A stretch of DNA of 35,800 nt from an uncultured Saprospiraceae bacterium (lineage in GTDB: Bacteria; Bacteroidota; Bacteroidia; Chitinophagales; Saprospiraceae): NCBI GenBank assembly GCA_937921555.1, contig CAKZUV010000311.1, positions 1 through 35,800 of the forward strand, read 5' to 3'. The translations under genes and the position numbers were made by a program. Position 1 is the first letter of the stretch, and every line of letters begins with the position of its first letter. Positions 16,393-30,525 of the stretch are shown piece after piece. The notes beneath the pieces are model-generated. The model did not search any database. It had not been told where the DNA came from and saw nothing but the letters and a program-made list of their open reading frames with translations.

Positions 16393-17625
16393 TTGATGAA
16401 ACCAGCTACCCGAGATAACCAACAGGAAGCCACGATGAGCGATATCCTACAAAAAGCGCAGCAGCATGTCCTCGAATTATCCAACCGGATAAACGACAAT
16501 CGCCTTTTGTATCACAACTACCAGCGAACTTCCCAAATCGTAGCGCATATCCAGCAGGTAGCCAACGCAATTGAGGCGGACAGCGAAACAAAAGAGATGG
16601 CTTCGCTCGCCGGCTGGCTGCACGCAACCGGTTACCAAAAAGATTACGACCGGGCAATCAGTAAAAGTATTGAAATCGCAGAAACCTTTTTAAACTCCGT
16701 TAATTATCCGGCAAAAAAAATCAGATCCGTTATTAACAGTATCAATGCTTCTAAAGAAAACAATCGTCCCGATAGCAAAGCGGCGGAATTGTTTCTGGAT
16801 GGACTGCATGGTTTTAATGCCACTAATAACTTTTTTCATCACCGCCCACTCTTAAGACTGGAATGGGAACTGGTGCAGGGCCGGCAACTTCCCGCACTGG
16901 AATGGAATCAGATTCAACTGCAGGAATTATTGCGAACCAGTTTTTATACGCCTTACGGCAAAAATCAGTTTGCTCCGATGGTCGCTCAAAATATTTTGAT
17001 GCAAAAAAGCAGGGTAGAAAAAAATCAACATAACAAACTCCAGCTTATCGACCAGGAAGACGGACAGGTTCGCAAATTTCAGGGTCTGGAAAAAAAGTTG
17101 CCCGGCAGTGCTACGCAAACGTATTTCAGAACCAACTACCGTAATCACATCAACCTGAGTGCGATCGCCGACAACAAAGCAAATATCATGATCAGTGTGA
17201 ATGCGATTTTAATCTCAGTGATCATATCAGTTTTATCTTATCAGAATATTCCGGAAACACAGCCAATGGTTTTATTGCCAGTTGTATTGTTTTTAGTCAC
17301 AGCCCTTACTTCGCTCATCTTTGCAGTGCTTTCTATCCGTCCAAAAGTGACGGCGCACAACGATGGTAAAGCAGATCTGAACGAAGCCCGGAAAAATATT
17401 GTGTTTTTTGGAAATTTCATCAATCTCAGCCTCGAACAGTTCGAAGAAGCCATGGATGCTGTGCTCCGGGACGGAGAATTACTGTACGGAAATATGACGC
17501 GGGATCTTTATTTTCTTGGAAAAGTGCTGGACAAAAAATACCGTTTTCTAACGATGTCTTATAATATTTTTATGGTTGGTTTTGTGGCGACGGTTATTTC
17601 ATTTTTAGCGGTTTTATTTTCGTAG
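16393..17625 (+). CDS. degenerate HD domain plus DUF5706 (Pycsar-effector-type) membrane protein
   Basis: A 410-residue two-part protein. Residues ~20-160 look like an HD phosphohydrolase fold, but the signature positions are changed: YHNYQRT where relatives have YHN-x-x-HT, and GWLHATGY where relatives have AWFHDTGY. The C-terminal ~170 residues match DUF5706, the membrane domain of Pycsar effectors (PycTM): YRNHINLSAIADNKANIMISVNAILISVIISVL (first helix), a second helix pair around VVLFLVTALTSLIFAVLSIRPK, NIVFFGNFINLSLEQFEEAM, and a last hydrophobic helix. In Pycsar this domain responds to cyclic pyrimidine nucleotides and disrupts the membrane; no cyclase gene is present in this window. 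Both 16393 and 16435 (MSDILQKAQQ) are possible starts; the second fits the family better. Stand-alone HD-DUF5706 proteins are common in Bacteroidota. Confidence 0.85.
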   Translation: MMKPATRDNQQEATMSDILQKAQQHVLELSNRINDNRLLYHNYQRTSQIVAHIQQVANAIEADSETKEMASLAGWLHATGYQKDYDRAISKSIEIAETFLNSVNYPAKKIRSVINSINASKENNRPDSKAAELFLDGLHGFNATNNFFHHRPLLRLEWELVQGRQLPALEWNQIQLQELLRTSFYTPYGKNQFAPMVAQNILMQKSRVEKNQHNKLQLIDQEDGQVRKFQGLEKKLPGSATQTYFRTNYRNHINLSAIADNKANIMISVNAILISVIISVLSYQNIPETQPMVLLPVVLFLVTALTSLIFAVLSIRPKVTAHNDGKADLNEARKNIVFFGNFINLSLEQFEEAMDAVLRDGELLYGNMTRDLYFLGKVLDKKYRFLTMSYNIFMVGFVATVISFLAVLFS

Positions 17626-19826: not shown

Positions 19827-20342
19827 ATGAAACTACCCCTTCTTCTGACTGCCTTTTTTGTTTTTCTTGCTTCTAATTTCATCACTGCCCAAAAGCTTTT
19901 GCAAATCGAAAAGGCCGGTACGCTGAAAACACAACGATACTACATCGGAGACGAAGTAATTTTTCAGTTGTCGGGAGAATTGGAAAATCATTGGTTTCGT
20001 GAACAAATTCTGGACATTATGGTAGATTCAAAATCAATTTTATTTACCAATCGGTTGGTGAAGATTTCGGATATTACAAAAATTCGGAGTTTTAAAAATC
20101 AGGGGTGGTCCAGAGGATTGAGTAATAATGCGTTTGTGGCGGCGGGTAGCTTTACGGGACTATCACTGATCGCGGCGGCTTTTACGGAGTTTATGCTGAG
20201 TCCGGCAACGATTATTATTCCGGGAACAACAATTGTGGCAGCTCTGATCGTACGTTTTATCTTCCGCAGAAAAACGTACCGGATAGGAAAAAAACGAAGA
20301 TTGCGGGTTTTGGATTTGAATTTTTATAAGGTGGGGCCTTGA
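19827..20342 (+). CDS. exported protein of unknown function with C-terminal membrane segments
   Basis: A 171-residue protein with a signal peptide (MKLPLLLTAFFVFLASNFITAQ), an ~80-residue beta-rich part (YYIGDEVIFQLSGELEN, DIMVDSKSILFTNRLVKISDITKI) that resembles the small exported Bacteroidota proteins with a PH-like fold, and two close hydrophobic segments (about residues 107-125 and 130-148) before a very basic tail (FRRKTYRIGKKRRLRVLDLNFYK). I do not recognise a family. It follows rnpA after 73 bases. Confidence 0.7.
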   Translation: MKLPLLLTAFFVFLASNFITAQKLLQIEKAGTLKTQRYYIGDEVIFQLSGELENHWFREQILDIMVDSKSILFTNRLVKISDITKIRSFKNQGWSRGLSNNAFVAAGSFTGLSLIAAAFTEFMLSPATIIIPGTTIVAALIVRFIFRRKTYRIGKKRRLRVLDLNFYKVGP

Positions 20343-21332: not shown

Positions 21333-21361
21333 CGATTTGGTAAATTGAAATAAAATATAAG

Positions 21362-21403
21362 AAAGCATGTACAGATTAATCGTAGTTTGTACATGCTTTT
21401 TTT
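21362..21403 (+). terminator. rho-independent terminator after the nitroreductase gene
   Basis: A perfect 12-base stem (AAAGCATGTACA at 21362-21373, TGTACATGCTTT at 21388-21399) with a 14-base loop is followed by a T run. It separates the nitroreductase from the lipid operon. Confidence 0.9.
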
Positions 21404-21482
21404 ATGGCAGAGACCAATCTGAATACTAATTTCTGGCATCATAAATTTGAAGTAACCTTCCCGCAAATCCCTGAAACTTGTT

Positions 21483-21513
21483 TTGTCTACCTGCCACAGA
21501 TACTGTATATTTA
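21483..21513 (+). promoter_or_regulatory. candidate promoter of the neutral-lipid operon
   Basis: TTG (21483-21485), 20 bases, then TATATTTA (21506-21513) fits the Bacteroidota promoter in spacing, with one mismatch in the -7 octamer. It lies 32 bases before the first gene of the operon and just after the preceding terminator. Confidence 0.5.
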
Positions 21514-21544: not shown

Positions 21545-23362
21545 ATGTTCAAAGACCTGTTTAATAAGGTGATCAACGCTCAGATTGAACCAATCTCAGG
21601 CTATGACGCCGCTTTTATCTACTCGGAGACGCCCAAAAGTCCAATGCACATTGCTTCCCTGACCGTGGTGGAAGGCTCTCTGGATTTCGAAGAATTTAAA
21701 ACCGGTGTTGCTAATAAATTACACCTGATGGAGCGCTTCCGGCAACGGTTGGTCAACGTGCCTTTCAACATAGACTATCCCTTTTGGGCGGACGATCCCA
21801 ATTTTGATATCGATCTGCACGTACAGCACATCCGGCTGCCCGAACCCGGAGACTGGAGCACCTTGCGGAAATTAACCGCCTCTCTTTTCAGCGCCCCGCT
21901 TGATCTGCGTCGTCCGCTCTGGTCGATTCATTTTATTGAGGGAATTACCAATATTGACCAGGTACCCAAAAATTCAGTAGCGATTCTGGCCAAGGTGCAC
22001 CACGTGATGATCGACGGTATGTCCGGCGTGGGCGTGATGGGACTGCTTTTTAGTTTTACCCCGGAAACCAAAGAATACGAAGATGAAAAACCGGTACCTT
22101 TTCAGCCTCAGCCACTACCCAATGATATTACTTTGCTGGCTAAAAGTTATATCGGTTTTTTAAAAAATCCACTGCGGGTTCCGCGCATTGCAGGAAAGGC
22201 CATGTTCAATATTATGAAAAGCCGGGCCGCCAAAAAAATGGCCATCGGGAGTGAAGCGATCAACCCTGCTTATCCGGTTCCGCATACGATTTTCAATGGC
22301 CATATTTCTCCCAAAAGATTGTGGGGTACCGCTATTATTTCGCTGGATCGGGTAAAAGTATTGAAGAAAACGATGGAGGTGACCATCAATGATATTTTTC
22401 TCGCCATCTGCTCCGGCGCCATCAGAAAATATTTGCTGGAAAAAGACAAGTTACCCAGTCAGCCACTGGTCGCCAACGTGCCGGTTTCTGTCCGGTCCAA
22501 AGAGGCCGCTAATGATATCAACAATCAGATTTCTAACATGATGATTCCGATTGGGACCCACGTGGAAGATCCCATCGAACGGCTGGAAATCATTCAGGAA
22601 CAAACCATTCAGGGAAAAATCAGACACCAGGCGTTGGGTGCCAATACGCTCGCTGAAATGGCCAACGCCGTACCTTTCGGACTGGCCAACCTGGCCGCCG
22701 GGGTTTACTCGCGCTATAATTTAAACGAATTACATCGTCCTCCTTTTAACGTCACGATTTCGAACGTTCCGGGGCCCCAAATTCCGTTGTATTTAAATGG
22801 CCGGAAGGTAGATTCTATTCTGGGACTGACGCCCGTTGTGGATGGTTTTGGATTGATAATCGCCATTTTTTCTTATAATGGAAAAGTCAGTATTACCGCC
22901 ACATCGGACGCCAAAACGATGCCCGATATCGATGTTTTTGCCCGCTATCTGAGAGAATCTGCCAACGACCTCGAAGCTATTATTCTGGAACGGGGCAAGG
23001 TGAAAAAGAAGGTGGCAAAAAAAATACACCGGACGCATTCTTTTTTTAATAAAATAAAAAAGTATTTCAAAGAGCATCCCCGTTTGCTCAAAAAAAATAA
23101 AGGAATCTATCAGCTGGAAGTCAAGTACCCGCAAAAGACGGAAACCTGGCAAATAGATCTGAGAGAAGCTCCGGCAAAAATCAGTAAACGTCCCGCCAAA
23201 AACTTTCAGGCCAAAATTATGCTGGAAGAAAATTATCTGACTCGTCTCGTAAAAGGAGAACTTTCCTGGGAAGAGGCACAGATTCAGGGGCGCATTAAAC
23301 TCGAAGGAAAACAAAGTAAACAGGAAATATTGTTAAGCTTGTTAAATAAAATAACAAAATAA
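21545..23362 (+). CDS. wax ester synthase / diacylglycerol acyltransferase with SCP2-like C-terminal domain
   Basis: A 605-residue WS/DGAT-family acyltransferase that would join acyl-CoA to a long-chain alcohol or diacylglycerol. Visible motifs are PLW (residues 124-126), the catalytic HHVMIDG (152-158, HHxxxDG), TINDIFLA (280-287, the ND motif), NVPVSVR, and FNVTISNVPGP near residue 400. The acyltransferase ends around residue 475. A lysine-rich linker follows, then ~90 residues (WQIDLREAP, AKIMLEENYLTRLVKGELSWEEAQIQGRIKLEG) that look like an SCP2 sterol-carrier/lipid-binding domain, unusual for the family, which is normally about 450-490 residues. First gene of a six-gene operon; the next ATG follows its stop without a gap. 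Confidence 0.93.
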   Translation: MFKDLFNKVINAQIEPISGYDAAFIYSETPKSPMHIASLTVVEGSLDFEEFKTGVANKLHLMERFRQRLVNVPFNIDYPFWADDPNFDIDLHVQHIRLPEPGDWSTLRKLTASLFSAPLDLRRPLWSIHFIEGITNIDQVPKNSVAILAKVHHVMIDGMSGVGVMGLLFSFTPETKEYEDEKPVPFQPQPLPNDITLLAKSYIGFLKNPLRVPRIAGKAMFNIMKSRAAKKMAIGSEAINPAYPVPHTIFNGHISPKRLWGTAIISLDRVKVLKKTMEVTINDIFLAICSGAIRKYLLEKDKLPSQPLVANVPVSVRSKEAANDINNQISNMMIPIGTHVEDPIERLEIIQEQTIQGKIRHQALGANTLAEMANAVPFGLANLAAGVYSRYNLNELHRPPFNVTISNVPGPQIPLYLNGRKVDSILGLTPVVDGFGLIIAIFSYNGKVSITATSDAKTMPDIDVFARYLRESANDLEAIILERGKVKKKVAKKIHRTHSFFNKIKKYFKEHPRLLKKNKGIYQLEVKYPQKTETWQIDLREAPAKISKRPAKNFQAKIMLEENYLTRLVKGELSWEEAQIQGRIKLEGKQSKQEILLSLLNKITK

Positions 23363-24298
23363 ATGGTAAAATCTGTGAATTTTACGTTTACGGCCAGAGA
23401 TGGTGAAGAAATATTTTATACGCACTGGCCGTTGGGAAAAAAAGAACCCATCCGGGGAGTGGTACAAATCGCACACGGAATCGGGGAACATATCGGCCGC
23501 TACGATGCGGTGGCATTGGCATTGAACAAAGAAGGATTTGTCGTTTATGGAAATGATCACCGGGGCCATGGTCGCACGGCTAATGACGGAAAAACCCTGG
23601 GACAATACACGGGAGAAAGTTTCTGGGAAGATGCCGTAGAGGACATGCACGAAATGACCCAACTCATCAAATCGGAATATCCGGATACTTATTTCATTTT
23701 GCTGGGGCATAGTCTGGGATCTTTGTTGTCGCGTGATTTTATCGCCCGCTATGGAGCGGAGATAGATGCCGTTATAATTTCCGGAACGGCCGGTTATATC
23801 AAAGTACTGGGTCCGGCGGGAGTGGCGATCACCGATTTACTGGTTCGGTTCCGGGGACGGGAGGCTACCAGCCCATTAATTGAATCCTTCTTTTTTGATC
23901 AGTTCAACCGGAAATTTAAGCCGAACCGTACCAAGCTGGACTGGCTCTCCCGCGATCCGCACGAAGTGGATAAATTCAATAAAGACCCGTTGCGCTCAGA
24001 GAAATTTCACGTCGGAATTTTACGGGGAGCGGCACTCGGTGGGAAAATAGCCAATGCGTCCAGTACGCTACAAAGAACTCCCAAAGGTTTACCCATGTAT
24101 ATTTTTTCTGGTGATCAGGATCCGGTCGGGGAGATGGGAGCAGGCGTAAAACGGGTTTATAACGATTATAAAAAAGTGGGTATGAAAAACCTGACATTAA
24201 AATTATATCCCGGAGGCCGCCACGAAATGCTGAACGAAACCAACCGTACGGAGGTAATTAATGATATGATTAACTGGATTAACAAAGTAATTGTATGA
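23363..24298 (+). CDS. alpha/beta hydrolase, monoacylglycerol-lipase-like
   Basis: A 311-residue serine hydrolase of the lysophospholipase/monoacylglycerol lipase branch. The sequence has QIAHGIGEHIGRYDAVA (oxyanion loop), VYGNDHRGHGRT, the nucleophile elbow GHSLGS (about residue 114), FSGDQDPVGEMGAGV (catalytic Asp) and GGRHEMLNE (catalytic His). This HGxGEH, DHRGHG and GHSxGS set is typical of monoacylglycerol lipases. In this operon it probably releases fatty acid from monoacylglycerol during lipid turnover. It starts directly after the WS/DGAT stop and overlaps the next gene by ATGA. Confidence 0.9.
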   Translation: MVKSVNFTFTARDGEEIFYTHWPLGKKEPIRGVVQIAHGIGEHIGRYDAVALALNKEGFVVYGNDHRGHGRTANDGKTLGQYTGESFWEDAVEDMHEMTQLIKSEYPDTYFILLGHSLGSLLSRDFIARYGAEIDAVIISGTAGYIKVLGPAGVAITDLLVRFRGREATSPLIESFFFDQFNRKFKPNRTKLDWLSRDPHEVDKFNKDPLRSEKFHVGILRGAALGGKIANASSTLQRTPKGLPMYIFSGDQDPVGEMGAGVKRVYNDYKKVGMKNLTLKLYPGGRHEMLNETNRTEVINDMINWINKVIV

Positions 24299-25446
24299 TA
24301 AAAAAAGAAAGGCTTTACCGGTATTTTGTAGAATTGATTTTTTCCATTACGGAAGCTTCCCGAAAGGTTGATGACGATGTGATCAAGGAGATTTTTGAAA
24401 AAGTAAAAAGACATCCCTGGGGACATTTGTTGGATTTTAGAAAATCCTACGGGCGGGGAAGTGATAAAGACGTGGAGTACCGTTTCCGGAAATTACTGGC
24501 CGCTTGTGAAAATAAAGGTGCCAACCGGGAGTATGAATTTCTGGTGCAAATACTGGATCAGGTAGCCAACTCCGTACAAACGCCCAAAAAGCACAAAGCG
24601 AAAGCCCATTTGGTCGTCAAGCAGTTTCGGCTCGCCATTTTATTAATTAACGCTCAGGAATCCGAACCACCCGGAATGCTTAATTTTATTCTGGAAGGAC
24701 GCTCTGTTTTTGAATGGGGATCCATGTTTTTTTTACAAAATTTTCTACCCAAAAGAATTGACGGAAATAAAAGCCCTGTTTTATTATTGCCACCGTTGTT
24801 TGGAACAGATTTCTCCACCCGTTTTCTCAGGAATTTTTTACAGGAACAAAATTTCCACGCTTATAAATGGAAATTAGGCATCAACCTCATCCGGGCTTAT
24901 TATCTGCCACAACTGGAAAACAGACTGGTTACGCTATTTGAAAAGCATCAACAAAAAGTTAGTCTCGTCGGCTGGAGTGGGGGAGGAATGCTGGCCAAAG
25001 TTGTCGCCAATCGCCATCCGGATAAAGTGGCTCATCTGGTTACCATCGGTTCTCCCATCTGGGGTATCGACGGTTTACAAACTTACATAAAAGGCTTGTA
25101 CGAATTTTTGCGCGGACAACCGCTTTCCGAGCGAAACGAAGATTTTAATGCCGAAATAGATGCTGTTCCAAAAGTGCCCATCACCTGCATCTATACCAAA
25201 ACGGATGGTGTCGTTCCCTGGCGCAACTGTCTGGAATCCGAAAGCCTTCGTCCCGACGTACAAAATATCGAAGTCTACGGTTCTCACAGTGGTCTGGGCG
25301 CTAATCCCGCTGTCTTGACGGTCGTCGCTTATGCGCTTTCCCAAAGACTAGAAGGAAAAAAGGTAAACAAACTACCTCCGAATATTGAAAAAATGATGTT
25401 TCCCTTATTCTGGCAACAGAAAATGGCCCAATTTAAATCCCGATAG
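24295..25446 (+). CDS. alpha/beta hydrolase (lipase-like) with long N-terminal extension
   Basis: A 383-residue protein. The first ~155 residues are helical with no recognisable motif; from about residue 160 there is an alpha/beta hydrolase: VLLLPPLFGTDFSTRFLRNFL (oxyanion region), LVGWSGGGMLAKVVANRHPDKVAHLVTIGSPIWG (nucleophile elbow GWSGG), CIYTKTDGVVPW (catalytic Asp) and GSHSGLGANP (catalytic His). It is similar in this part to the last gene of the operon (29728). The GxSxG plus T/S-K-x-DG-V-PW plus SH set is typical of esterases of the PGAP1/triacylglycerol-lipase kind. Start overlaps the previous stop by 4 bases. Role in lipid turnover is inferred from context. Confidence 0.85.
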   Translation: MIKKERLYRYFVELIFSITEASRKVDDDVIKEIFEKVKRHPWGHLLDFRKSYGRGSDKDVEYRFRKLLAACENKGANREYEFLVQILDQVANSVQTPKKHKAKAHLVVKQFRLAILLINAQESEPPGMLNFILEGRSVFEWGSMFFLQNFLPKRIDGNKSPVLLLPPLFGTDFSTRFLRNFLQEQNFHAYKWKLGINLIRAYYLPQLENRLVTLFEKHQQKVSLVGWSGGGMLAKVVANRHPDKVAHLVTIGSPIWGIDGLQTYIKGLYEFLRGQPLSERNEDFNAEIDAVPKVPITCIYTKTDGVVPWRNCLESESLRPDVQNIEVYGSHSGLGANPAVLTVVAYALSQRLEGKKVNKLPPNIEKMMFPLFWQQKMAQFKSR

Positions 25447-25449
25447 AAA

Positions 25450-28400
25450 ATGCAGGAAATAATAAAACACCCAGCCTTCCAGAATACCCTGAAAGCCATT
25501 GCCAAGGAAGAAAGTCGTAGTTTCAACGACGTAGAACAGCACGCCATTAAGAGTCTGAAAGAGTTACACACCCAGCAACATCCGGTCTCTAATTTTTTAT
25601 CCATACAAGCCTTCCAGTATTTGATTTCCCGCGCCTACGCTGATAAAATCGACGTTGACAAAAAAGGGATAAAGAAGCTGATGAAATTGATCAGAAAGCA
25701 TCCCGTAGCCTTCATCATGACCCACAAAACCTATCTGGACACCCTCGTACTCGTCACCACGCTGGCCCGCTACGGAATGCCGGTTCCCTTTATGTTTGCT
25801 GGAGATAATATGGCTTTTCCGATCATGAAACAATTGGGAAAATACAGTGGAATGATTTTCATCCGGCGAAATTTCAAAGAGGACTCGGTCTATAAAGCTA
25901 CCCTGCGTCATTTTATCACCACGCTGATTGACAACGGACAACATTTTACGTGGAATATCGAAGGAACCCGTTCCCGGACCGGAAAATTGGTCTGGCCCAA
26001 AATGGGTATTCTCAAATACATCATGGATGGAGAAAAAGACAGCAACCGGGAATTTAAATATATTCCGGTCTCCATTGTGTATGACTTGATTCCGGATGTA
26101 AAAGAGATGACCGAACAGGCAAAAGGGAAAAATAAAAAAGGAGAAAATGTAGGAGCGGCCATTAATTATATTAAAAAATTAGGTGATCAATTTGGGCGGG
26201 CTGCTATCCGTTTTGGTGACCCGGTCGAGTCCGGAGGAATCCATCAGGCCATTATTCCCAATCAGGAAGAAGAAAGCTATCTCGACAAAAATCGCCTGCC
26301 ACGATTTGCCTTTGAGGTAATCCACCGCATTAATATTATCACCCCGGTGACCACCGTTTCGCTGGTTTGTCATATTTTGTTAAATCACTTTTCGTTACCA
26401 AAAAAGAATATTGAATTCCGGGTCGTTAAGTTGATGAAATTTATTGAACAAAGACGCGAGGATGTATTACTGGATCGTGGTAAACCCATCGGAAAAAGTA
26501 TCACCAATGCCCTCAATTTATTGCAGCGGAGTGGCATTGTCCAGAAGGTAAAGTCGGGGATCAAAGCCCAGTACTGCCTCGGACGGGACGAATATTTACC
26601 GGCCAATTATTATGCGAATATGGCCTCCGGTCATTTGTACCAACGAGCCTTTATTGAGTTGGCACTTGTCAAGATCGGAGACGACCACTCCGCCCGTAGA
26701 ATGATCAATTTCTGGAAAGAAATTATGCGTTTGCGGGATACCTTTAAGTTTGAATTTTTCTATTCCAATAAAGCCAGTTTCAGCGACGAGATCGAAGAAG
26801 AACTCCAGCATTTTAATTCGCAATGGCGTAAAATTTTAAAAAATCCAAAAGGAAATATTCGCAAACTACTGGAACAACAAACCTTCTTTGTGGCCGAGTC
26901 GGTGTTACTCAATTATCTGGAAGCCTATAAAGTCGTCTGTCGTACCTTGCTGGAATGGAACACCGAAGACCCTTTTGATGATAATGAATTTATTGAGGCT
27001 TGCTTATTCAAGGGACGGGACCTTCACTGGCAGGGACACATTAGAAGACTGGACAGTGTTACAAAGCCTTTTGTGACCAACGGTCTGAGACTGGCGCGTA
27101 ATTATCAGCTGATTCCCATTGGTAAGGATCATAAAACGGAAGCGCTGGAAAAATGGCAGGATGATTTAGTTGCCATGAGTAACCGGCTTTCGCAATTACA
27201 AAAACTCGAAGCCATTATTGACCGCGATAGTGACCACACGATTCCGCTCGAAATGGAAGTAGTACCCGGTTCAGATTTAACCATCATCACCGAAGAAGTC
27301 ACCAAATCTGAAAAAGGAAAACACATTGCCGTCTTCTTTGATCTGGACCGTACGCTGATTAATGACTTCTCCGCCAAACGGTTTTTACGTTCCCGGATTT
27401 TATCAAAAAAATTAACTACCCGTGAAATTATCTCCCACGTAGCCGTACTCATGATCTACGCCTCGGGTAGCCGGGATTATGCCAATTTTACCCGGTTGTC
27501 CGTACAGGGACTCAAGGGAATGAAAGAAGAAGAATTTCTAAATCTGGGAGAAGAAGTTTACACAAAATATTTAGCCGCGGCCATTTATCCCGAAGCCCGT
27601 GCGCTGGTCGCCTCGCATTTTGCGCAGGGACATAAAGTAGTCATAGTATCCGCCGCTACGCCTTATCAGGTCGCCCCCGTGGCCCGGGATTTGGGCGTAG
27701 ACGACATTTTTTGTACCACGCTGGTCGTGGAAGACGGTAAATTTACGGGAGAGGTAGAGGAGATGTGCTGGAACGAAGGCAAAGCCAAAGCGGCCACCAT
27801 TTTTGCGGAAAAGCACGACATTGATTTGTCGAAGTCTTATTTTTATACCGATAGTTTTGAAGATTATCCATTACTGGAAATTGTCGGAAAACCACAAGCC
27901 GTCAATCCAGACAAAGCGTTGGCGCAGATTGCTTTTGAAAATAACTGGCCGATCCATCAGTTTGAGGAACCACTCGGTATGCCACTCATCAATACGTTGC
28001 GGACCGGACTGGCCATAGGGAGTATTTATCCTTCGGTTGTCAAAGGAATTACGACGGGCGTTTTCCATCTTTCCCAGCGCAAAGGGATCAACGCTACTTA
28101 CGCCATGATGGGAGATTTGGGTTGTCGAATGGCGGCCCTGGATTTGGTGATCAAAGGCAAGGAAAATCTGGAACGTGCCCGGCCAGCCGTTTTCTGTTTT
28201 AATCACCAGAGCAACGCAGATATGTTTATTTTGATGAAATTGCTGCGCCGCGATTTTACGGCAATTGCAAAAAAAGAATTAGCCGTACCACCATTCGGAG
28301 GTATCCTGAAACAACTGGGCGTTGTTTTCGTCGACCGAAAAAACCGGGAGCAGGCCATCGAAGCCATGAAACCCGCCGTAGAATCATTGAAGAATGGCGT

Positions 28401-28689
28401 CTCCATCGCGGTCGCTCCTGAGGGTACGCGCAGCCGGACCACCAAGTTGGGCGCATTTAAAAAAGGACCCTTTCATCTGGCAAAACAGGCCGGGGTTCCC
28501 ATCATTCCGATTGTCATAAAAAATGCGCACCATGCACTTCCAAAAGGGAGTAGTTTTGTGCGGCCCACCACCATTGAGATCGTCGTGCTGGACCCGATAG
28601 ATTTGTCCGGATGGAAACGAAAAGATTTGGATAAAAACATTGAAAAAGTGAGAAATAGTTTTCTTGCGGAACTTAACCAAAACGAATAA
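25450..28689 (+). CDS. three-domain GPAT - HAD phosphatase - LPAAT fusion
   Basis: A 1079-residue fusion. Domain 1 (about 1-580) is a PlsB-type glycerol-3-phosphate acyltransferase: HKTYLD (92-97, HX4D), IFIRR (136-140), EGTRSRTGK (171-179), YIPVSIVYD (204-212), followed by the long C-terminal region of PlsB-type enzymes. Domain 2 (about 622-840) is a SerB-like HAD-IB phosphatase: FFDLDRT (nucleophile Asp631, Asp633), VSAATPYQ, and TDSFEDYPLL. Domain 3 (about 890-1075) is a PlsC-type lysophosphatidate acyltransferase: NHQSNAD (His919/Asp924), VFVDRKNR and PEGTRSRT (990-997), then IIPIVIKN. All catalytic motifs are intact. The HAD part could be a phosphatidate phosphatase giving diacylglycerol for the WS/DGAT; this is inference. 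It lies 3 bases after the previous gene. Confidence 0.93.
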   Translation: MQEIIKHPAFQNTLKAIAKEESRSFNDVEQHAIKSLKELHTQQHPVSNFLSIQAFQYLISRAYADKIDVDKKGIKKLMKLIRKHPVAFIMTHKTYLDTLVLVTTLARYGMPVPFMFAGDNMAFPIMKQLGKYSGMIFIRRNFKEDSVYKATLRHFITTLIDNGQHFTWNIEGTRSRTGKLVWPKMGILKYIMDGEKDSNREFKYIPVSIVYDLIPDVKEMTEQAKGKNKKGENVGAAINYIKKLGDQFGRAAIRFGDPVESGGIHQAIIPNQEEESYLDKNRLPRFAFEVIHRINIITPVTTVSLVCHILLNHFSLPKKNIEFRVVKLMKFIEQRREDVLLDRGKPIGKSITNALNLLQRSGIVQKVKSGIKAQYCLGRDEYLPANYYANMASGHLYQRAFIELALVKIGDDHSARRMINFWKEIMRLRDTFKFEFFYSNKASFSDEIEEELQHFNSQWRKILKNPKGNIRKLLEQQTFFVAESVLLNYLEAYKVVCRTLLEWNTEDPFDDNEFIEACLFKGRDLHWQGHIRRLDSVTKPFVTNGLRLARNYQLIPIGKDHKTEALEKWQDDLVAMSNRLSQLQKLEAIIDRDSDHTIPLEMEVVPGSDLTIITEEVTKSEKGKHIAVFFDLDRTLINDFSAKRFLRSRILSKKLTTREIISHVAVLMIYASGSRDYANFTRLSVQGLKGMKEEEFLNLGEEVYTKYLAAAIYPEARALVASHFAQGHKVVIVSAATPYQVAPVARDLGVDDIFCTTLVVEDGKFTGEVEEMCWNEGKAKAATIFAEKHDIDLSKSYFYTDSFEDYPLLEIVGKPQAVNPDKALAQIAFENNWPIHQFEEPLGMPLINTLRTGLAIGSIYPSVVKGITTGVFHLSQRKGINATYAMMGDLGCRMAALDLVIKGKENLERARPAVFCFNHQSNADMFILMKLLRRDFTAIAKKELAVPPFGGILKQLGVVFVDRKNREQAIEAMKPAVESLKNGVSIAVAPEGTRSRTTKLGAFKKGPFHLAKQAGVPIIPIVIKNAHHALPKGSSFVRPTTIEIVVLDPIDLSGWKRKDLDKNIEKVRNSFLAELNQNE

Positions 28690-28692
28690 ATT

Positions 28693-29697
28693 ATGCAGCA
28701 GTTAAAAGTAGGATTATTGGGAGGAGGCTCGTGGGGAACAACGGTCGCCTCGCTCACGGCCCGGAATTGTCCCACTTTGATCTGGGCGCGTAATCAGGAT
28801 ACGGTGAATGAGATCAACCAAAAACACCGGAACGAAAAATATTTGCCGGGCGCTGTCCTGCCTGCTTCGCTGACTGCCTGTAACACCATTGAGGAAACGG
28901 TGAAAAATGCCGACGTGGTGGTGATGGGTATTCCCGCCCAGCATTTCCGGAAAGTACTCTGCGAAGCCCGGCCCCACATCCGCCCCTGGGTGCCGATTAT
29001 CAGTCTGGCAAAAGGACTGGAACTGGATACCAAAATGCGGATGACCGAAGTGATCGAAACGGAGATGCCCGGACATCCGGCGGGCGTACTGACGGGACCC
29101 AACCTGGCCAAAGAAATTGCCGCCGGACAAGCTGCTGCCAGTGTGATCGCGATGGTCGATGATACGATTGCGATTCGGTTACAAACAATTTTCAGCACCG
29201 GATTATTTCGGGTGTACACCAACGAAGATGTAGTAGGCTGTGAATTGGGCGGTGCCCTCAAAAATATCATTGCCATCGCAACGGGGATGGGAGACGGCGC
29301 CGATGCCGGTGACAATACCCGCGCCGCGATTATTACCCGAGGACTGGCGGAGCTGACCCGTCTGGGTGTCGCCATGGGCGGACAGCCACAGACCTTCGCG
29401 GGCCTCGCCGGAATGGGCGACCTCGTGGCGACCTGCAGCAGTACCAAAAGCCGGAATCATTACGTGGGTTTTAATCTGGGCCGTGGCCGGAAAATAGAAG
29501 ATATTATTTCAGAAATGGCCGAAGTAGCCGAAGGCGTTAAAACGGCTAAAGTAGTCATGGAACTGGCGCAGGCCTACAAAATTGAAATGCCCATTGCTAC
29601 GGAAGTTTACAAGGTGCTGTACGAAGGTGGTTCTGCACAGACAGCGTTCCGGGGACTCCTGCGCCGGGACGTTGGATCAGAAGCTGAACCAGGATAG
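28693..29697 (+). CDS. gpsA: NAD(P)-dependent glycerol-3-phosphate dehydrogenase
   Basis: GpsA reduces dihydroxyacetone phosphate to sn-glycerol-3-phosphate, the backbone of phospholipids and triacylglycerol. The 334-residue protein has the dinucleotide fold GLLGGGSWGTTVAS, VMGIPAQHFRKVL, SLAKGLE, TGPNLAKEIAAG, the catalytic lysine in GGALKNIIAIATGMGDG, NTRAAIITRGLAELTRLG and GLAGMGDLVATC. Length and motifs are normal. It is 3 bases after the GPAT-HAD-LPAAT gene, so it is co-expressed with enzymes that consume its product. It may be the only gpsA of the genome; the window cannot show this. Confidence 0.97.
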   Translation: MQQLKVGLLGGGSWGTTVASLTARNCPTLIWARNQDTVNEINQKHRNEKYLPGAVLPASLTACNTIEETVKNADVVVMGIPAQHFRKVLCEARPHIRPWVPIISLAKGLELDTKMRMTEVIETEMPGHPAGVLTGPNLAKEIAAGQAAASVIAMVDDTIAIRLQTIFSTGLFRVYTNEDVVGCELGGALKNIIAIATGMGDGADAGDNTRAAIITRGLAELTRLGVAMGGQPQTFAGLAGMGDLVATCSSTKSRNHYVGFNLGRGRKIEDIISEMAEVAEGVKTAKVVMELAQAYKIEMPIATEVYKVLYEGGSAQTAFRGLLRRDVGSEAEPG

Positions 29698-29727
29698 TTT
29701 TATCTTGTTTATAAGTCAAATCAACTA

Positions 29728-30447
29728 ATGCAGCCGGAAGATTTTAAAGCATCCGAGGAGATAAAACAACCCTCGATATTTTTATTTATGATCGAATTTG
29801 TTCGGTCGTGGCTGGAGCGGATTATGTCCTGGTCTTTCCGGCGGAATTACGAGCCGGCCCGTTTCGGAGATGGTCATCCGGTACTGGTGATTCCGGGCAT
29901 TATTGCCCACGATTTTCAGATGGAGCCGATGCGTCGTATGCTGGACCGGCTGGGATATCAGACGCACGCCTGGGAGCTGGGCTTTAATCTGGCGGATCTG
30001 GAAGAAGTAGATGTTTTAGAAAAAAAAGTCGTAAAATTGTACCGGGAGACGGGACAAAAAGTGTCCGTTATCGGTTGGAGTCTGGGAGGTATTTACGCAC
30101 GGGATCTGGCGCGCCGTCATCCGGACAAAATCCGGCAGATATTTACGCTGGGATCGCCCTTTCGGGGAATTACCAAACCGACCAGAGCGAGTTGGGTGGT
30201 CCACGCGCTGAAGGGAAATCCGGAAGATTTTATTGATGTGGAATGGATCAGGGAACTCGAAAATCCAACCAAGATTTTGACGACCGCGATTTACAGCAAG
30301 TCGGACGGCGTATTACCGTGGCCGTATTGTCTGGACGTGGTCGAAGACGAACTGCATCGCAACCGGGAAGTCGTGAGTAGTCATCTGGGATTTCCGCACA
30401 ACCGGGAGGTACTGAAAATTATTGCGGATTATTTACCGGATAGCTAG
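29728..30447 (+). CDS. alpha/beta hydrolase (lipase-like), last gene of the lipid operon
   Basis: A 239-residue alpha/beta hydrolase with VLVIPGIIAHDFQMEPMRRML (oxyanion region), VSVIGWSLGGIYARDLARRHPDKIRQIFTLGSPFRG (nucleophile GWSLG), AIYSKSDGVLPWPYCLD (catalytic Asp) and SSHLGFPHN (catalytic His). It is the paralog of the C-terminal ~220 residues of 24295-25446, with shared GWS-GG, RRHPDK, TLGSP, SKSDGV-PW and the SH-LG spacing, but has no N-terminal extension. It follows gpsA by 30 bases. Probably a lipase or esterase of the same pathway; the substrate is unknown. Confidence 0.87.
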   Translation: MQPEDFKASEEIKQPSIFLFMIEFVRSWLERIMSWSFRRNYEPARFGDGHPVLVIPGIIAHDFQMEPMRRMLDRLGYQTHAWELGFNLADLEEVDVLEKKVVKLYRETGQKVSVIGWSLGGIYARDLARRHPDKIRQIFTLGSPFRGITKPTRASWVVHALKGNPEDFIDVEWIRELENPTKILTTAIYSKSDGVLPWPYCLDVVEDELHRNREVVSSHLGFPHNREVLKIIADYLPDS

Positions 30448-30525
30448 CGGGCTTTTGGTCCTTTTTCGGTTGCGTGACAGATGGGCGTTTCAGGTGTTAA
30501 GTCAATGAATGAAACTTGGATAGAA

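Follow-up and report, generated by a model that had tools for sequence, protein, structure and literature searches.

How might a bacterium of the phylum Bacteroidota gather the making and the use of storage fat into a single run of genes? The question is raised by a stretch of 35,800 nucleotides (the window, hereafter) from an uncultured Saprospiraceae bacterium (assembly GCA_937921555.1, contig CAKZUV010000311.1, positions 1 to 35,800), where six open reading frames (ORFs) follow one another on the forward strand (Table 1). They code, in turn, for a wax ester synthase/diacylglycerol acyltransferase (WS/DGAT), a monoacylglycerol-lipase-like hydrolase, a putative lipase, a protein fusing glycerol-3-phosphate acyltransferase (GPAT), HAD and lysophosphatidate acyltransferase (LPAAT) parts, a GpsA-type dehydrogenase and a second lipase-like hydrolase. 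As argued below, this operon probably makes and recycles triacylglycerol; the conserved gene arrangement behind that proposal is well supported, the function moderately so. An initial annotation, made from the letters alone, had listed the six genes, their strand and their intergenic gaps (0, -4, 3, 3 and 30 bases from gene 1 to gene 6), all of which the ORF call reproduces exactly, and the gene identities that it gave are borne out by Pfam and NCBIfam profile scans of the window proteins, with scores read against curated cut-offs. The gaps of 0, -4, 3 and 3 are suggestive of a single transcript, no more.

Table 1. Features of the operon and of its flanks in the window (cut-offs in brackets; aa, amino acids).
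Feature	Position	Strand	Evidence
Terminator-like hairpin and T run, between upstream nitroreductase gene and operon	21361..21404	+	fold of 21361-21402, -21.2 kcal/mol
Bacteroidota-type promoter-like site TTTG-N20-TATATTTA	21482..21513	+	motif match in conserved upstream block
Gene 1, WS/DGAT acyltransferase, 605 aa	21545..23362	+	TIGR02946, 420 bits (310)
SCP2 lipid-transfer domain, C-terminus of gene 1, residues 501-588	23045..23308	+	PF02036, 27.9 bits (21.3)
Gene 2, monoacylglycerol-lipase-like alpha/beta hydrolase (Hydrolase_4), 311 aa	23363..24298	+	PF12146, 168 bits (27)
Gene 3, alpha/beta hydrolase (putative lipase), 383 aa	24295..25446	+	Abhydrolase_1, 32.8 bits (25.8); PGAP1, 24.9 bits (24.3)
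Gene 4, GPAT-HAD-LPAAT fusion, 1079 aa	25450..28689	+	Pfam, NCBIfam
GPAT region of gene 4, about residues 1-590	25450..27219	+	GPAT_C, 183 bits (25)
HAD-IB phosphatase-like domain of gene 4, residues 627-823	27328..27918	+	TIGR01490, 173.5 bits (98.3)
LPAAT/PlsC region of gene 4, residues 870-1075	28057..28674	+	TIGR00530, 139.9 bits (103)
Gene 5, GpsA-type glycerol-3-phosphate dehydrogenase	28693..29697	+	NF009098/PRK12439, 498 bits (436)
Gene 6, second lipase-like alpha/beta hydrolase, 239 aa	29728..30447	+	PGAP1, 24.8 bits (24.3)
Weak terminator-like hairpin downstream of gene 6	30449..30461	+	-4.9 kcal/mol for 30445-30470

Is this arrangement an accident of one genome? Neighbourhoods were counted around the best 80 of at least 411 confirmed relatives of the fusion from a scan of named genomes, together with seven loci from a search of the order (two of the loci, L033 and L096, are one contig, both counted). 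By their titles, the relatives listed come from Saprospiraceae, Flavobacteriaceae, a few other Bacteroidota and one record labelled Chloroflexi. In 35 of the 39 flavobacterial loci, genes 1 to 5 stand in the order of the window on one strand, with gaps mostly below 50 bases, and the other four (L055, L067, L080 and L083) are interrupted by contig ends. Because order and strand are kept so widely, the cluster is more than a chance grouping. One of the 35, a Maribacter metagenome-assembled genome (L061), has its WS/DGAT frame split in two (L061:768-2575), by assembly error or by decay. No gene 6 turned up in any flavobacterial stretch examined. All six genes occur in two Saprospiraceae loci of the window type, L040 and L044, where gene 6 lies 602 and 122 bases after gene 5, against 30 in the window; a third locus of this type, L039, is a 3.3-kb contig with the fusion and one end of gene 3. 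The conserved operon core is therefore five genes, not six: of the six-gene operon first proposed, five members stand as a unit and the sixth is loosely linked. That sixth gene may be an addition of the window's lineage, and the five-gene order would be either old or passed between lineages.

Beyond these loci the picture loosens. The initial annotation had called for a search of the same gene order in Saprospiria; the order is kept in L040 and L044, and the operon is not shown in the next-nearest four members of the family, L041, L042, L082 and L043. In L082 a relative of gene 3 lies 8.7 kb from the fusion, and L043 is a short contig; the two others are considered further on. Among the remaining 41 loci, which include L032 though its fusion is nearer the window type (57%), the fusion has a WS/DGAT gene nearby in 21, a hydrolase of the gene 3/6 type in 22 and GpsA in 11. 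Rearranged or convergent layouts are frequent among them, and many of the stretches are short. As for the record labelled Chloroflexi (MAG-182), it carries a Bacteroidota-type fusion gene at L114:5208-8576 and is probably mis-binned.

The most singular member of the operon is the fusion protein, which is a single ORF in relatives too (median 1081 aa, n=88 proteins). Its catalytic motifs, under the names that we take to be theirs, were counted in the window and up to 87 loci, among proteins above set length limits, and they are almost uniformly intact. In the GPAT part, the HxYxD-type motif is present in 87 of 87 fusions, EGTRSRTG in 86 (the exception is L106) and F.RR.F in 85 (exceptions L093 and L111). 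The HAD part keeps DxDxT in all 87; its last motif reads DSxxD in 83 and DAIDD in the other four, with both aspartates retained. The LPAAT motif NH[QR]Sxx[DE] is again found in 87 of 87. Moreover, HAD residues D631, D633, T635, S734, K778, D801 and D805 are invariant in an alignment of 49 sequences, taken from the 84 of gene 4 (that of the window among them) with 1040 aa or more. The predicted structure of the fusion (mean predicted local distance difference test score, pLDDT, 81.4) points the same way: in Foldseek comparisons, the modelled GPAT region finds its best match in human GPAT1 (8e4y, TMt 0.71), the HAD domain resembles the HAD protein 3fvv (TMt up to 0.87) and the LPAAT region resembles Thermotoga PlsC (5kym, TMt 0.71). 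The HAD domain would be the phosphatidate phosphatase of the pathway. Such a role has been suggested, in the passages available, by the authors of a Rhodococcus jostii study for a HAD domain fused to PlsC (PMC4850399), and the function of AGPAT-HAD proteins 'remains to be elucidated' according to an available passage of another study (PMC10351704).

By its profile matches (besides those of Table 1, PF03007 at 179 bits, cut-off 23.6, and PF06974 at 104.7 bits, cut-off 20.7), gene 1 is a member of the WS/DGAT family, with a predicted DGAT or WS activity. HHxxxDG, which we take to be the catalytic motif of this family, is intact in all 60 WS/DGAT sequences with 450 aa or more, a count that takes in the window. 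For the AlphaFold (AF2) model (mean pLDDT 75.8), the best structural alignments are with Marinobacter 6chj (Z 38.3) and Acinetobacter 7nxg (Z 35.2), the next row falling to Z 27.2. While the family had been rightly recognized in the initial annotation, the C-terminal SCP2 domain had been overlooked; it is matched at E 0.01 in 58 of 60 sequences, that of the window among them.

The hydrolases are less sharply defined. Compared with sequences of the PDB, gene 2 aligns with a bacterial monoacylglycerol lipase at E 2.7e-23, three alpha/beta hydrolases without a lipase name ranking higher; it is akin to solved monoacylglycerol lipases, and monoacylglycerol is its predicted substrate. Genes 3 and 6 share 35% identity over 231 columns, and the N-terminal 120 or so residues of gene 3 are without Pfam match. 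Since gene 3 passes Abhydrolase_1 and PGAP1 and gene 6 passes PGAP1 alone, narrowly, 'lipase' is for both a name at the level of the fold. GxSxG is present in every hydrolase counted (40 of 40 for gene 2, 45 of 45 for gene 3, 24 of 24 for gene 6). Gene 5 is the second gpsA copy of its genome: the other (G000:C173) is 34% identical and scores 230 bits on PRK12439, below the cut-off.

Carriage of the fusion goes with that of WS/DGAT. When 149 genomes were drawn from the order, eight proved to have a fusion of near full length (the genome of the window, six genomes of family f12 and one of f2); the other 18 drawn from the window's own family have none. WS/DGAT is found in 18 of the 149, seven of them with the fusion; the associated Fisher P of 8.5e-7 is indicative only, since the genomes are related. 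In one carrier, G041 (C145, C31), there are two WS/DGAT genes, whose frames measure 593 and 629 aa, and one of the two does not share a contig with the fusion. A draw from the whole phylum gave WS/DGAT in 21 of 395 genomes, about 5%; the available text of a published survey gives 3% of Bacteroidota genomes (PMC10351704). Mis-binning of the contig as the cause of this patchy distribution was considered and rejected: the contig also encodes UvrB, and the UvrB proteins of the 18 other family members in the order draw, with identities of 72-81%, outrank the other matches.

Put together, these genes would make and recycle triacylglycerol. GpsA would provide glycerol-3-phosphate, which the GPAT domain of the fusion would acylate and to which its LPAAT domain would add a second acyl group; the central HAD domain would then strip the phosphate, leaving diacylglycerol. 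WS/DGAT, whose SCP2 domain would bind the lipid substrate or hand it over, would attach the third acyl chain, and the monoacylglycerol-lipase-type and lipase-like hydrolases would free fatty acids when needed. GpsA, fusion and WS/DGAT thus span the way from glycerol-3-phosphate to triacylglycerol, provided that the HAD domain is a phosphatidate phosphatase. The initial annotation had all enzymes except fatty-acid activation in the operon: this stands for GpsA, GPAT, LPAAT and WS/DGAT, all encoded there, and hinges for the phosphatase step on the published suggestion about HAD. Its co-directional Kennedy-pathway operon with hydrolases agrees with the family matches and with the content of published clusters, as far as the accessible descriptions go (PMC10699116, PMC4850399). 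Available passages on those clusters also indicate that mycobacterial PlsB2, the GPAT of a related one, has been shown to acylate glycerol-3-phosphate (PMC10593935) and that in R. jostii the genes of the operon, whose PlsC is fused to a HAD domain, share a single transcript (PMC4850399).

Several observations weigh against a triacylglycerol operon of this kind. On the side of the enzymes, the best NCBIfam model of the GPAT region (NF002886/PRK03355) covers residues 2-587 with 461 bits, under its equivalog cut-off of 721, and the HAD domain has further matches, to models of histidinol-phosphatase (122 bits for a cut-off of 280) and, in structure, to phosphoserine phosphatases. The HAD domain need not even be the phosphatase, because four PAP2 proteins above cut-off are encoded elsewhere in the genome. 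On the side of the genes, the fusion of L041 stands alone in 23 kb, the other five genes being not found within 10 kb on each side; L042 has genes 1, 3 and 4, without gene 2; and one carrier of the fusion, G076, gave no WS/DGAT match. Because the gap before gene 4 is 28 bases in L040 and 208 in L044, a single transcript is not certain. Finally, we found no lipid data for the source organism, and the accessible account of R. jostii describes atf9-plsB-plsC as repressed when nitrogen is limiting, the very condition that makes fat accumulate, its authors using the term 'house-keeping' (PMC4850399).

This last point feeds the strongest of the competing explanations, namely that the fusion chiefly supplies membranes with phosphatidate or diacylglycerol, WS/DGAT and the hydrolases acting as a valve for overflow or remodelling. 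Not only is this closest studied operon expressed in nitrogen excess, as far as the available text goes (PMC4850399), but PlsY (PF02660) was not found in the genome of the window, a gap that the fusion might fill. The wider count speaks differently. PlsY is carried by 42 of the 149 genomes of the order and by none of the 19 drawn from the family, only one of which has the fusion; loss of PlsY offset by the operon was accordingly rejected as a principal cause. Nor can the fusion be taken simply for the membrane enzyme that is missing, because the 18 other genomes of the family lack PlsY and the fusion alike, so that another glycerol-3-phosphate acyltransferase presumably serves membranes there. 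The genome of the window itself has six Acyltransferase-family matches besides the fusion, and the co-occurrence of fusion and WS/DGAT is not what a membrane role would lead one to expect. We hold this housekeeping explanation to be unlikely, yet the most serious rival; storage is a putative purpose of the operon.

Could the product be a wax ester instead? WS/DGAT enzymes are generally capable of both reactions, and the top structural matches of the gene 1 model, a WS/DGAT from Marinobacter and a wax synthase from Acinetobacter, would suit an enzyme that chiefly esterifies fatty alcohols, with hydrolases that cleave wax esters. However, the operon has no fatty-acyl reductase, and GpsA, GPAT and LPAAT are unnecessary for making a wax ester. 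The genome does have nine PF07993 matches, by a model that is unspecific (it finds matches in all 14 control genomes), and their frames do not exceed 377 aa. Long fatty-acyl-CoA reductases exceed this size; short reductases of the Acr1 type would escape the argument. Because the operon supplies the glycerol backbone and no long fatty-acyl reductase is seen, triacylglycerol is favoured and a wax-ester cycle appears quite improbable. Of the two products named in the initial annotation, triacylglycerol is thus indicated by GpsA, GPAT and LPAAT, and wax ester is left unsupported. Just as improbable is a monoacylglycerol route, where the HAD domain would act on lysophosphatidate rather than phosphatidate with the monoacylglycerol-lipase-type hydrolase as a brake: plant GPAT4/6/8 proteins, which carry a HAD-like domain, make monoacylglycerol, and both the place of the HAD domain between GPAT and LPAAT and the presence of that hydrolase among the five conserved genes would fit, but the fusion also has an LPAAT domain, which would be a competitor for that substrate.

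How much of the proposed triacylglycerol operon was known? The following comparisons were made by published description, within the text available of each source. In atf9-plsB-plsC of R. jostii RHA1 and Rv2482c-Rv2485c of Mycobacterium tuberculosis, WS/DGAT, GPAT and HAD-LPAAT are likewise clustered (PMC4850399, PMC10699116), with an esterase nearby in the latter (PMC10699116), and the window has the same three functions on one strand. The Actinobacteria have separate plsB and HAD-plsC genes where the window has one 1079-aa fusion; in addition, unlike their clusters, the operon of the window has an SCP2 domain on its WS/DGAT and includes GpsA, a monoacylglycerol-lipase-type hydrolase and another hydrolase. 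Closer in phylogeny, Galvan et al. (2023) described Bacteroidota WS/DGAT proteins with PF02036 (SCP2) and an adjacent acyltransferase/hydrolase, that is, the same type of WS/DGAT, in a set sharing with ours the genera Polaribacter, Ulvibacter, Dokdonia, Winogradskyella, Tenacibaculum and Muricauda (PMC10351704). For Bacteroidota, the available text of that study describes no triple fusion with GPAT, five-gene order, GpsA or hydrolases (PMC10351704). It does report gammaproteobacterial scaffolds, from another phylum, in which GPAT, acyltransferase, WS/DGAT and hydrolase are clustered, with glycerol-3-phosphate dehydrogenase in one scaffold, and again its available text describes no triple fusion (PMC10351704).

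The claim of the initial annotation that such operons are little described in Bacteroidota must therefore be tempered: an SCP2-type WS/DGAT beside an acyltransferase/hydrolase was published in 2023 (PMC10351704), and it is for the five-gene operon that the claim appears to hold. In the literature at hand (main texts, mostly non-subscription, and in part), we found no GPAT-HAD-LPAAT fusion, no five-gene operon and no neutral lipid reported for a carrier; the portion of PMC7572474 at hand has nothing on these genes. Already known are the Actinobacterial operon, the AGPAT-HAD fusion with its suggested role, and the Bacteroidota SCP2-WS/DGAT with its acyltransferase/hydrolase neighbour. Apparently new are the triple fusion (sought outside Bacteroidota in the named-genome scan only), the conserved operon that includes a GpsA and hydrolases of its own, and an adjacent apolipoprotein-like protein in Flavobacteriaceae, considered below. 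If triacylglycerol is indeed the product, many Flavobacteriaceae and some Saprospiraceae own a compact set of genes with which storage fat is made and used. Because cultured carriers can be named (Polaribacter glomeratus, Ulvibacter antarcticus, Bizionia arctica, Winogradskyella), lipid storage is directly testable, and the triple fusion offers a clean test case for the HAD-PlsC domain as a phosphatidate phosphatase of bacterial fat synthesis.

Where the operon came from is less easily told. Quick, unrooted trees give different groupings: for gene 4 (two of the 88 proteins, shorter than 1000 aa, being excluded), flavobacterial rows, window-type rows and the four nearby Saprospiraceae stand apart from the other 40; for gene 5, window-type rows join other Saprospiraceae-type rows against Flavobacteriaceae; for gene 1, flavobacterial rows stand against the rest, with a warning of long branches. 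A recent transfer from Flavobacteriaceae was considered and is not claimed, as the trees are equally compatible with vertical descent and many losses. The operon (21545-30447) has a GC content of 0.466 against 0.414 in the rest of the window, and of the 14 genes computed, gpsA and the sixth gene have the highest GC at third positions; as a sign of transfer, the higher GC is a weak hint only.

In Flavobacteriaceae the operon keeps company with further genes, whose families were assigned from the copies of one locus (L045:14263-19545). A SARP/BTAD-type regulator and a protein of 170-180 aa without family each lie beside the operon in 36 of the 39 loci, an apolipoprotein/phasin-like protein of the L045:16291-17127 type in 31, an ABC1 kinase in 25 and a TetR_C_23 regulator in 24. 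Relatives of these neighbours were found neither in the window nor in L040 and L044. A gene like the SARP regulator was tried as the regulator of the operon and set aside: it was not found in the genome of the window, and two of the 149 genomes have it at E 1e-10, both of them fusion carriers.

The apolipoprotein-like protein deserves a closer look. When 31 of these proteins were scanned at E 0.01, HHH_5 was matched in 22, Apolipoprotein in 16 and Phasin in six; for the first member all three fall below curated cut-offs, and its best NCBIfam match is phasin PhaH, with 50 bits for a cut-off of 250. The assignment is a lead only, because proteins rich in lysine and alanine give biased matches. 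A motif of the helix-hairpin-helix kind is seen in 31 of the 44 loci with a relative of this protein. MLDS of Rhodococcus, according to the text available, is a protein of lipid droplets that has an apolipoprotein motif and binds DNA by a tail rich in lysine (PMC5504291), and the flavobacterial protein has a similar layout, its tail being lysine-rich and often of the helix-hairpin-helix type. To judge from these likenesses, the flavobacterial neighbours are a possible module for coating droplets and tethering them to DNA. One may go further and imagine a Bacteroidota 'TAG (triacylglycerol) machine', in which one polypeptide with three active sites fused together would turn glycerol-3-phosphate into diacylglycerol, WS/DGAT-SCP2 would complete the product, the hydrolases would recycle it and, in Flavobacteriaceae, the apolipoprotein/phasin-like protein could tether droplets to the nucleoid, as MLDS does; this whole picture is a tentative one, and we would not bet on it.

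The initial annotation had placed a terminator and a promoter-like site upstream of gene 1. The former is matched by a strong hairpin with a run of T. The latter, whose Bacteroidota-type consensus we presume to be correct, falls, when the window is compared with L040 and L044, inside the best-conserved block 5' of gene 1. TTTG-N20-TATATTTA occurs three times on the forward strand of the window and once on the reverse, for a Markov mean of 1.3 per strand and a maximum of 5, and is thus no rarer than chance. No match was found in the 300 bases upstream of seven flavobacterial operons tested. TANNTTTG alone occurs 49 times, scattered across the window, against 35.7 expected, and a scan for sigma-70-like sites in the window was not informative (26 against 17.6 expected, standard deviation 4.2). 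A tRNA scan of the window found none.

Two further genes of the window are worth recording. At 19827-20342, directly after the gene of the ribonuclease P protein, lies an ORF of 171 aa without Pfam or NCBIfam match, and at 16393-17625 a protein of 410 aa ends in a C-terminal PycTM (Pycsar effector) domain, matched with 102.6 bits.

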